A DNA stretch of 64,000 nt from Cupriavidus pauculus (GTDB lineage Bacteria > Pseudomonadota > Gammaproteobacteria > Burkholderiales > Burkholderiaceae), in contig NZ_CP033970.1 of the NCBI RefSeq assembly GCF_003854935.1, forward strand, positions 558,001 to 622,000, written 5' to 3'. This document shows, piece after piece, positions 61,074 through 64,000 of this stretch (positions within the stretch are counted from its first letter, which is position 1; every line of letters begins with the position of its first letter). The position numbers were made by a program, and so were the translations under genes. The notes below the pieces were generated by a model. The model saw nothing but the letters and a program-made list of their open reading frames with translations. It did no database searches and was not told the DNA's origin.

Positions 61074-61267
61074 GGGTTGGCTCCTTGTTTGACGTGCAAG
61101 CAGTCTAGGCACGGGGTGCGGGGCTATCGAACCGGAACACGACGGCGCGCGATCCGGAATGCGACAGGGGCGGCGGGATGCGCTGGGACTTTGGTCCAAT
61201 GGATGGACGGCGGCGAACGGCCTACCGTGTGCGGAGTCGATTCCCGAACCCTGGGGGAGGCACGAGC

Positions 61268-61945
61268 ATGCCGACTGTCCATCCGCCCCAAGTCGTCACC
61301 GCCGCCGCGCCCGCGCCGGGCCTGGATGTGGTGGACCGGGTGTCCGAAATGTGTTTCGGGCTCTACATGGCGCTGACGTTCGTGGGCGCCGTCGCCTCGG
61401 CCTCGGGCGGGTCTGACACGCCCGAGACCATGCTGCGCGCGGCGCTGGGCTGCAACCTCGCCTGGGGACTGGTCGACGCCATCATGTACCTGGTGCGCAC
61501 GCTCGCCGGGCGCGGCATGCTGCAGAAGCTGGCGGCCACCGTGCAGGACGGCAACCCGGCCACCGGCATCGCGGCGATCCGCGACGCGCTGCCTCCGGCC
61601 ATGAACCCGCACATCGCCGACGACGACCTGGAGCCAATGCGGGCGCGGCTGGCAGCGGGCGCCACCGTGGCGGCGCGGCCTTCGCTGAACCTTCGCGATG
61701 GCCTGGCGGCGATCCGCATCTTCTGCATCGTCGTGTTGTCGACGTTTCCTGTGGCCCTGCCGTTCGTGCTGTTGCACGACGTGGGTACGGCGCTCGTCGT
61801 GTCGAGGGTGCTGACGCTGATCATGCTGTTCGTCGGCGGCGCCGCGCTGGGCCACTACGGCGGCATGAACCCGTGGCGCGCCGGGTTCGGCATGATGGCG
61901 CTGGGCGTGGCGGTGACCGCGGCGGTCATCGCGCTGGGGGGCTGA
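61268..61945 (+). CDS. VIT/CCC1-like membrane protein
   Basis: A 225-residue polytopic membrane protein. The segment DRVSEMCFGLYMALTFVGAV followed by AALGCNLAWGLVDAIMYLV (residues about 23-80) resembles the first half of vacuolar-iron-transporter/CCC1 proteins, including the acidic DRxSE in the first helix. A soluble stretch of about 80 residues then leads to three further helices (for example IRIFCIVVLSTFPVALPF). The metal-binding hairpin of plant VIT is not recognisable, so iron or manganese transport is uncertain. Start ATG 61268 has GGGGGAGG. The next gene begins just after its stop, so they are probably cotranscribed. Confidence 0.65.
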   Translation: MPTVHPPQVVTAAAPAPGLDVVDRVSEMCFGLYMALTFVGAVASASGGSDTPETMLRAALGCNLAWGLVDAIMYLVRTLAGRGMLQKLAATVQDGNPATGIAAIRDALPPAMNPHIADDDLEPMRARLAAGATVAARPSLNLRDGLAAIRIFCIVVLSTFPVALPFVLLHDVGTALVVSRVLTLIMLFVGGAALGHYGGMNPWRAGFGMMALGVAVTAAVIALGG

Positions 61946-61946
61946 G

Positions 61947-62588
61947 ATGCGGGCGGGGTGGGCCTTGGTCGGCCTTGCACTGGCCTGCGGCGGGGTCCAG
62001 GCCCAGCAAGTGGCCGTCGACCCGCCCGACGCCAGCGGCGACGCGCCGGCGGCCTGGAGCTTCCTGGCGACCGGCTTCTGGAACATGCCCCGGCAGGAAG
62101 GCAACTACGGCTCGGGCATCTTCGCCGCCGACCGTGGCGCGCTTCACCTGGAAGCGCGCATCAACTACGAGGCGCTGGACGCCAAGTCCGGCTTTATCGG
62201 CTGGTCGTTCTCGGGCGGCGAGAAGATCCAGTACAAGGTGACGCCCATCGTCGGATTCGTGGCGGGCAGCGCCCACGGCCCCATTGCCGGCGTGGAGGCC
62301 AGCCTGGCGGTCGGCAAGTTCGACTACTACATCGAAGCCGAATACCTGCCGGGAACGGGGTCCACCACGCCCTATACCTATGCCTGGAGCGAACTGGGCT
62401 TCCGGCCGGTGCAATGGCTGCGGCTGGGGCTGGTCGCGCAGCGCACCCGCATCTACGGCGGCGACCGCGAGTTCCAGCGCGGCGGCATGCTGCAGCTCAC
62501 GTACGGCAAGGTCACCGGCAGCGTGTACTGGTTCAACCCGAAGTCGCAGGAGCAGGTGGTGATTGCCGCGGTGACCGTGGCGTTCTAG
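61947..62588 (+). CDS. exported protein of unknown function
   Basis: A 213-residue protein with a clear signal peptide (GWALVGLALACGGVQAQQ). The mature part has alternating aromatic and short-strand segments (LHLEARINYEALDAKSGFIG, FDYYIEAEYLPGTG, LRLGLVAQRTRIYG) and ends in VTVAF with a terminal Phe. This suggests a small outer-membrane beta-barrel. I do not recognise the family. The ATG at 61947 sits 2 nt past the stop of the VIT-like gene, so they form a two-gene operon, and it may support metal or ion handling there; that is inference. Confidence 0.7.
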   Translation: MRAGWALVGLALACGGVQAQQVAVDPPDASGDAPAAWSFLATGFWNMPRQEGNYGSGIFAADRGALHLEARINYEALDAKSGFIGWSFSGGEKIQYKVTPIVGFVAGSAHGPIAGVEASLAVGKFDYYIEAEYLPGTGSTTPYTYAWSELGFRPVQWLRLGLVAQRTRIYGGDREFQRGGMLQLTYGKVTGSVYWFNPKSQEQVVIAAVTVAF

Positions 62589-62627
62589 CGGATTCGGCAC
62601 GGTGCAAGGGACGTCCGCTTTTCGACC

Positions 62628-62657
62628 TTGCGGGACAAATGACGAATACTGTATATT
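62628..62657 (+). promoter_or_regulatory. promoter -35 TTGCGG / -10 TATATT over LexA box
   Basis: TTGCGG (62628-62633) and TATATT (62652-62657) are separated by 18 bp, a fair sigma-70 match. The -10 lies inside the LexA-type operator, so repressor binding would block it. It drives the small unknown gene starting at 62724. Confidence 0.55.
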
Positions 62658-62666
62658 TATACAGTA
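62647..62666. promoter_or_regulatory. near-perfect LexA (SOS) box
   Basis: TACTGTATATTTATACAGTA matches the E. coli consensus TACTGTATATATATACAGTA at 19 of 20 positions and fulfils the CTGT-N8-ACAG rule used by beta- and gammaproteobacterial LexA. Its A/T-rich sequence is highly unlikely by chance in this GC-rich window. It lies 58 nt upstream of the only downstream gene, an unknown ORF of 118 codons. Confidence 0.88.
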
Positions 62667-62723
62667 TCTCGTGGCTGCCGTTTCTGGCGCTGCGCGTCCT
62701 CACCCCACATCGAAAAGGCCATC

Positions 62724-63080
62724 ATGTTCGTGGATCGCACCGAAATCATCAACGCCGCCAAAGCCCTGCGCGCCAGCCAGGAAGAATCCCGGTACAGCCG
62801 CCTCGTCGCACTCGCGAACAAGCAGCTCAAGGCGATGCACAGCGCGATCCAGAAGGGCAAGGAAGAGTTCGAGACCACGCTGGTGCTGGAAATCAACGAA
62901 GACAACCCCCAATCGGCACTGGAACCCCGCGCTCAACGGCTCGCCGACGACCTTCGCGCACAGGGCTATGCCGCCACGGTGAGCACGTTTGCCGAAGTGA
63001 ACACGGACCGTTTGAACTGGACGCCGAATATCACGGTCGTCATTGGGCTGGGGGAGATTGCGGAGGGGGTTGCGGCGTAG
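62724..63080 (+). CDS. 118-residue protein of unknown function, probably SOS-controlled
   Basis: A small soluble protein (MFVDRTEIINAAKALRASQE at the start) with a long amphipathic helical N-terminal half (residues 5-50) and an alpha/beta-looking second half (ETTLVLEINEDNPQ, LADDLRAQGYAATVSTF, ITVVIGLGEIAEG). No family is recognised. There is no signal peptide or membrane segment. Start ATG 62724 follows AAAAGG. The LexA box and promoter directly upstream predict induction upon DNA damage, independent of what the protein does. The gene is alone; a convergent autotransporter gene follows. Confidence 0.75.
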   Translation: MFVDRTEIINAAKALRASQEESRYSRLVALANKQLKAMHSAIQKGKEEFETTLVLEINEDNPQSALEPRAQRLADDLRAQGYAATVSTFAEVNTDRLNWTPNITVVIGLGEIAEGVAA

Positions 63081-63158
63081 GGTTACCAGCGGGACAGGTC
63101 CGTTTTTCTCAGGCGGAGGGAGGGCGCCAGACGGGCCCGGCCCTCCCCCCATTCGCCG

Positions 63159-64000
63159 TTACCAGCGATAACGTACGCCGAGTTTGGCGCCGATTGCATT
63201 GCTGTCGCCGAAGTCCTGCACGCTGGTGCGCGCCAGCAGTTCGCCATAGACCGTGTAGCGGTCGTCATCCCAGTTCAGCGAAGCGCCGATGCCCAGGCCA
63301 GCCCACAGCGCCTGTTCCTTGCTGACGACGCTGAGGTCGGCCACGCGTGCCGACGTGCCGTGCAGGAAGTCGTAGTACAGGTTCGTGATGCCATAGACGT
63401 GCGAGCGGCTCGTCTTGCCGTTGCCGGCCGCCCACCTTGCCTCGTGGTTGAGCGACACGCCCAGGCGCGAGACCAGGCTGTTGCCGTTGTCGCGCGACAC
63501 GTTGGCGCCGTATTGGTCGGTGAAGGCGTCGAACCGCACCTGCGACCAGGCGAGCTGTGCCTGCGGCGTGATCGACCAGTTGCCGCCCAGCGCGAGCTGG
63601 TGGCCGGCTTCCAGGCTGGTGGCCACGCCGCTGCCCCGGTTGCCATTCGCCAGCTTGGTCGCCAGCGTCGACGAACGGATATCGGTGTCGTACCACGTCA
63701 CCGTTGCGCGGGCATCGACATAAGAACCATTGTTGCCGTACCACGTGGCCGTTCCGCCAAAGCCATAGCCAGTCGCATCGACCGAACCGTTGCCCAGCAT
63801 CGACGATACGTTGGAGTTGGCGATGCCGTAGTGGAAGGTGGGGCCTACCACCAGCGTGCCGGCGTCGTTCTGGATGACCGGGGCGTCAACACCGCCCTCG
63901 AACTTCCACATGCGGACGTTGTAGCTGGCGCTGGTGGTGCTGGTCGACGGGTCGACATGGGTGGTGGAGCCCTCCACACGCGCCCACGCGCCGCGGCCGA
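63159..64000 (-). CDS. autotransporter C-terminal beta-barrel (N-terminus outside window)
   Basis: About 280 residues of the translocator domain of a type V secreted autotransporter. The barrel begins near the window edge (R-G-A-W-A-R-V-E-G, the usual start of the domain) and has repeated amphipathic strands such as FEGGVDAPVIQ, GYGFGGTATWYGNNGSYVDA, WSITPQAQLAWSQVRFDAF and YTVYGELLARTSVQDFGDS. It ends with KLGVRYRW, a C-terminal aromatic residue as required for Bam. The passenger and signal peptide lie to the right of the window, so the coding sequence is incomplete. The frame continues past the apparent GTG at 63977 to the edge. Confidence 0.88.
   Translation of the reverse strand, partial: GRGAWARVEGSTTHVDPSTSTTSASYNVRMWKFEGGVDAPVIQNDAGTLVVGPTFHYGIANSNVSSMLGNGSVDATGYGFGGTATWYGNNGSYVDARATVTWYDTDIRSSTLATKLANGNRGSGVATSLEAGHQLALGGNWSITPQAQLAWSQVRFDAFTDQYGANVSRDNGNSLVSRLGVSLNHEARWAAGNGKTSRSHVYGITNLYYDFLHGTSARVADLSVVSKEQALWAGLGIGASLNWDDDRYTVYGELLARTSVQDFGDSNAIGAKLGVRYRW

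Follow-up and report, generated by a model that had tools for sequence, protein, structure and literature searches.

A patchily distributed orphan gene of Cupriavidus is a probable LexA target

Our analysis argues, with good though not complete confidence, that an orphan gene of 118 codons in Cupriavidus is a real gene under LexA control, and that DNA damage very probably switches it on. The gene lies at 62724..63080 (plus strand, stop codon included) of the 64-kb stretch of DNA analysed here, which we call the window, and is defined by its open reading frame (ORF), its homologues and its ratio of non-synonymous to synonymous change (dN/dS). In the genomes sampled it is limited to Cupriavidus and close kin, among which its distribution is patchy.

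Results

The putative LexA operator (SOS box), TACTGTATATTTATACAGTA at 62647..62666 on the plus strand, is recognised by its match to the consensus, its matrix score and the conservation of its core. It is identical to the LexA consensus TACTGTATATATATACAGTA at 19 of 20 positions, with one mismatch, and a scan of the 64-kb window found it to be the sole match to that consensus at three or fewer mismatches; in 100 shuffles the full 20-nt site did not arise once at this tolerance. The short form CTGT-N8-ACAG occurs once in the window, with 0.46 occurrences expected by chance per 64 kb, and the strength of the evidence therefore lies in the full 20 nt. Genome-wide, the short form is found at 36 places compared with 30 for its reversed control, so most of these places are probably chance. 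Scored with a matrix built from eight SOS sites of the same genome, the window box reaches 37.6 out of a maximum of 37.9 and exceeds all eight reference sites (24.9–36.3), and the second-best position within the window scores 6.9. The near-perfect SOS operator of the original prediction is thus borne out. Its distance from the gene had been put at 58 nt; the close upstream position holds, but the spacing measured from the box to the ATG (62724) is 57 nt.

The ORF behind the operator has the marks of a real gene. Over the 549 of 561 pairwise comparisons with pS > 0.05, the median dN/dS is 0.12, which indicates a protein under purifying selection and agrees with the gene of 118 codons that had been predicted. 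The window copy is 77–85% identical to the 33 other proteins and has 118 residues; 32 of the 33 others have 141–150 residues and a longer tail, and the remaining one (L002, 119 residues) ends at a contig edge. The tail varies and is probably acidic in most relatives; its charge is −10 to −3 in four relatives examined and −2 in the window copy. The elements predicted for the window copy are a long helix (residues 5–43), a strand (51–56), a second helix (63–79) and two further strands (83–89 and 102–108), in a model with a mean pLDDT of 59.8. The model of the full-length copy of C. metallidurans CH34, a laboratory strain in which the gene matches NC_007974.2, has a mean pLDDT of 48.1, and the poor quality of both models makes the fold, and any guess at function drawn from it, weak. 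Inspection by eye shows no membrane segment, and the protein is probably small and soluble.

The claim that the gene belongs to no recognisable family also stands, since neither Pfam nor NCBIfam gave a match near a curated cut-off and PHROGs and PADLOC gave weak matches only. One weak, long HMM match was to phrog_5321, a family of small phage proteins (residues 9–86; E 0.15 for the window copy and 0.03 at best; 26 of 34 members). Profile–profile comparison with hhalign gave this pairing a probability of 0.3%, and the two are not homologous by that test.

The original prediction also had the operator overlap a promoter, which we consider likely. A likely −35 element, TTGCGG, lies at 62628..62633, and a likely −10 element, TATATT, read by eye, lies inside the operator at 62652..62657, both on the plus strand and with a spacing of 18 nt. 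The −35 assignment draws on relatives that keep the position of TTGC: at 32 of 34 loci it lies 21 nt ahead of the CTGT core, one locus has TTGT, and in another it is shifted by one base. An overlap between the −10 element and the operator would explain the constant centre of the box. Against this, a sigma-70-like consensus scan of 62400-63400 reports no promoter at its thresholds. A ribosome-binding site, AAAAGG, lies at 62713..62718 (plus strand), and its motif is kept in relatives, with A(A/G)AGG present within 16 nt of the ATG at 33 of 34 loci; a scan of the locus found no terminator-like site.

The 16-nt core of the operator, CTGTATATTTATACAG, is identical at all 16 positions upstream of every one of the 37 copies of the gene, which are carried by 35 of the 61 genomes of the genus. 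This count compares the coordinates of gene copies with those of the 16-mer, and full sequences were read for 34 loci. At these 34 loci the flanks differ, and between 59 and 101 nt separate the end of the core from the ATG. Perfect arms around the box centre reach 15 nt at L002, L007 and L015 and 8 to 11 at the remainder (29 loci counted). In five matching records of a plasmid collection, DNA similarity to the window starts at 62686-62703, 3′ of the box; the region upstream has thus diverged, and the box is conspicuous within it. Loss of the box in relatives that keep the gene had been named in advance as a refutation, and the core is retained in 37 of 37 copies. The recA box served as a control: CTGTTTTTTTATACAG recurs unchanged at 28 of 30 loci, with one variant and one locus in which it was not found; operators in this genus thus appear constant gene by gene, and such invariance is ordinary for a true SOS gene. 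At L009 a second, nearly complete operator follows directly behind the first, in tandem with a 16-nt period, and the larger gaps between core and ATG at L058 and L062 (the latter on a contig of the same organism as L009) probably fit a tandem operator of the same kind.

Across the genus, the 16-mer occurs at 146 places in 57 of 61 genomes, and its reversed control at none. Nineteen of these places were read. Nine lie upstream of an ORF with an ImuA motif, and the four of these ORFs that were scanned all score above the ImuA cut-off (NF033429); one place (L122) belongs to a copy of the orphan gene; two adjoin PA0069-like radical SAM ORFs, named by their likeness to L036; and the other seven are without assignment. 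Because an identical 16-mer precedes imuA in the genus, the window site reads as a LexA operator, and its occurrence at the imuA-motif and the radical SAM ORFs ties it to SOS genes independently of E. coli. With the core present at 37 of 37 copies and an identical operator before imuA, the proposal that the orphan gene is a LexA target has strong sequence support. The frequency of the short form (0.46 expected per window; 36 genomic places against 30 in the control) is what might be pleaded for a chance palindrome, or a site of a different regulator, that happens to precede a spurious ORF. The absence of the full site from 100 shuffles, the conservation at 37 of 37 copies, the dN/dS of 0.12 and the 16-mer before imuA nearly refute such an account, which we judge extremely improbable.

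The genome that holds the window encodes one LexA above the TIGR00498 cut-off and has two boxes upstream of lexA. We scanned for gene families in 20 stretches of this genome, which cover 23 of its 36 short-form places. Besides lexA with its two boxes, the box-linked genes above curated cut-offs encode DNA polymerase IV, a PA0069 family radical SAM protein and a DNA-repair-linked radical SAM protein; a UvrD/PcrA-like helicase and UvrA matched as fragments below the cut-offs, and recA was recognised by its sequence. Other short-form places are clearly no operators; for example, the sequence CTGTATGCGAAAACAG occurs four times (L040, L042, L049 and L051) inside an ORF with the same flanks and is a repeated element, not an SOS operator. 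The same genome has five further small candidate ORFs close to good LexA boxes (L045, which has two boxes, L046, L047, L048 and L054). None has an NCBIfam match or a Pfam match over the cut-off, and L048 has a weak match to a Crp-like HTH. The ORFs near two LexA boxes at L043 and L047 have the peptide SKSFESETWEEAE in common, which suggests paralogues of another SOS-linked gene. At L034, in genome G222, the orphan gene stands directly behind a second small orphan gene, each with its own CTGTATATTTATACAG box; L075 resembles the same place, and L054 of the window's genome is a look-alike of that second gene.

The gene is present in 23 of 60 relatives. A sample of the family holds it in 24 of 300 genomes, all of one genus, and a sample of 399 from the order yields that genus only, bar one chance-like match. 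Within the genus, the 35 genomes that carry it (33 of the 55 of high quality) share the 37 copies, two genomes having two each. A scan of genome_contigs (84,980 species) with two peptide patterns, which reaches near relatives only, returned 26 loci, many of them overlapping the set of 60 relatives: 24 are titled Cupriavidus, one 'Ralstonia sp.', and one is a MAG titled Rudaea. The genome that contains the window has four contigs and a size of 6.18 Mb; the window sits in one of 1.9 Mb (C3) and recA on another (C2), so that the gene probably sits on a secondary replicon. In eight of the ten gene-holding genomes with five or fewer contigs, gene and recA are on different contigs (they share one in G304 and G340). 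Upstream of it, at 61178-62588, is a two-gene unit that stays together genus-wide at changing places and encodes a VIT1-like membrane protein (just below the Pfam cut-off) and a family-less protein of 213 aa; downstream, at 63159-64000 on the minus strand and convergent with the SOS gene, an autotransporter beta-domain is encoded (PF03797, E 1e-35).

By a crude clustering of ORFs, the neighbours of the gene are for the most part not the same across the window and 30 loci. Of 28 loci examined for DNA similarity to one another, 20 have a median start 21–30 nt ahead of the core, at the −35 region, and the other eight, the window included, a later one; the similarity stops near the end of the gene. 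Divergence of the gene follows neither that of recA (Mantel rho −0.15, n = 19, p 0.80) nor that of the neighbour gene (rho −0.22, n = 16), which itself leans towards agreement with recA (rho 0.28, n = 14, p 0.052). In 171 pairwise comparisons the gene and recA have median pS values of 0.259 and 0.271; the value of the gene is the lower one in 95 pairs, and large departures run both ways, with 0.039 against 0.275 for recA between G012 and G018, and 0.348 against 0.124 between G022 and G222. Four groupings of the recA tree, chosen after the trees had been seen, were compared with a gene stretch of only 327 nt. One clade (p-AU 0.018) and one pair (0.046) are rejected, a second pair is not (0.346), and a fourth recA clade (G002, G025, G250 and G278) is recovered in the gene tree. 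The patchiness of the gene and its failure to track recA make some horizontal spread likely, and the simplest reading of these sequences is probably one of some horizontal exchange, in which copies moved between Cupriavidus strains.

The same observations would suit a more specific alternative, in which the gene is horizontally circulating, self-contained, SOS-gated cargo (moron-like): a promoter–operator–gene unit of about 0.6 kb that moves mostly among secondary replicons and serves a mobile element or strain competition, not host repair. The bounds of similarity, the differing neighbours, the lack of agreement with recA, the near-identical copies in recA-distant genomes, the rejected recA clade and the two genomes with two copies all speak for it. 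However, changing flanks are ordinary in this setting. The neighbour upstream of the gene in the window occurs at 21 further loci (L090-L110), where similarity to the window ends at or before 62591 and the SOS gene is absent from the DNA (up to 1.5 kb) behind that neighbour; ten of the 21 share a downstream flank with no other locus and the others share one only in groups of two to four, so that the neighbour unit also changes place and the replicon is generally rearranged. Moreover, L057, L059 and L069 do have upstream neighbours in common, the clades were post hoc and rest on 327 nt, with a second recovered and a third not rejected, and no common transposase or integrase was established. The gene had no match in 50,697 phage records or, by two peptide patterns, in viral contigs, which gives no sign of carriage by known phages. 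We give cargo of this kind an appreciable chance, though clearly less than an even one.

Discussion

We return to the gene as a LexA target of the host. In the mechanism we propose, LexA dimers would occupy the near-ideal operator and, lying across the likely −10 region, obstruct RNA polymerase; RecA filaments would then provoke the self-cleavage of LexA, and the gene would be transcribed. An operator so near the optimum should give tight repression and late induction. Promoter, operator and gene appear to be kept together while their flanks change. The product would most likely act by binding a partner, as a lineage-specific damage checkpoint or as a modulator of RecA or repair. Among the small SOS proteins that other lineages have to themselves, division inhibitors and RecA modulators are common, and it is for this reason that we put a checkpoint or modulator first for the orphan gene; taken by itself, this suggestion about function is tentative and somewhat doubtful. 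The interpretation in the original prediction is partly supported: LexA control has strong sequence support, and the gene may be an SOS effector.

A DinI-like RecA modulator reached independently, that is, a small, SOS-controlled protein with a strand–helix–strand–strand core and an acidic C-terminus, would be one form that such a product could take. Like DinI (PF06183), the orphan protein is small and, by prediction, under SOS control, and the predicted order of its elements is similar to that of DinI; the tail is acidic in four relatives (−10 to −3). A search for DinI itself, in which E. coli served as the positive control, found it in none of 23 genomes of the genus and none of 14 others, which leaves room for an analogue. 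The orphan protein differs from DinI, however, in its long extra N-terminal helix and in showing no profile similarity. No homology to DinI was found, with an hhalign probability of 0.2% and with PF06183 not among the families listed in a Pfam scan of 34 members. The short tail of the window copy and the poor structure model weigh further against an analogue, which we regard as improbable. The most far-reaching reading combines several parts: the gene would be self-contained and SOS-gated, spread horizontally inside a single genus, encode an undescribed protein family and act as a damage checkpoint or RecA/LexA modulator in bacteria where DinI was not found; it is unlikely that all of these parts hold together.

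The beta-proteobacterial LexA regulon is built on CTGT-N8-ACAG operators and includes recA, lexA, uvrA, dinB, imuA and a splB-like radical SAM gene. The orphan gene resembles its members in the sequence of its operator, in the likely position of that operator over the promoter and in a 16-mer identical to that of imuA, and differs from them as a target without a family or known repair function. A survey of LexA regulons in multi-chromosome bacteria, among them Ralstonia eutropha, R. metallidurans and C. taiwanensis, reports two hypothetical beta-proteobacterial targets, hypA and hypB, and states that hypB is exclusive to Burkholderia (PMC3323433). Like the orphan gene, with which hypA could be identical, these two are uncharacterised LexA targets in the same bacterial group. 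Our samples of the family and order hold the orphan gene in its own genus only, bar the one chance-like match. The original prediction had treated a stand-alone, uncharacterised SOS target as an oddity. That the gene is without a family stands, but the five further small, family-less candidate ORFs near good boxes, together with the two published hypothetical targets, make this argument weaker than stated: small uncharacterised SOS targets are not rare.

The gene is ordinary in kind and useful as a target, and its history, patchy and in part probably horizontal, adds modestly to its interest. Cupriavidus is used in work on metal resistance and in biotechnology, and the gene adds to the SOS response of this genus a conserved, probably tightly controlled and unexplained member. 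Its patchiness means that strains with and without it can be compared directly. A strong operator is often the sign of a product that is costly if made too early, and on these grounds the orphan gene could reveal a new checkpoint or repair modulator.
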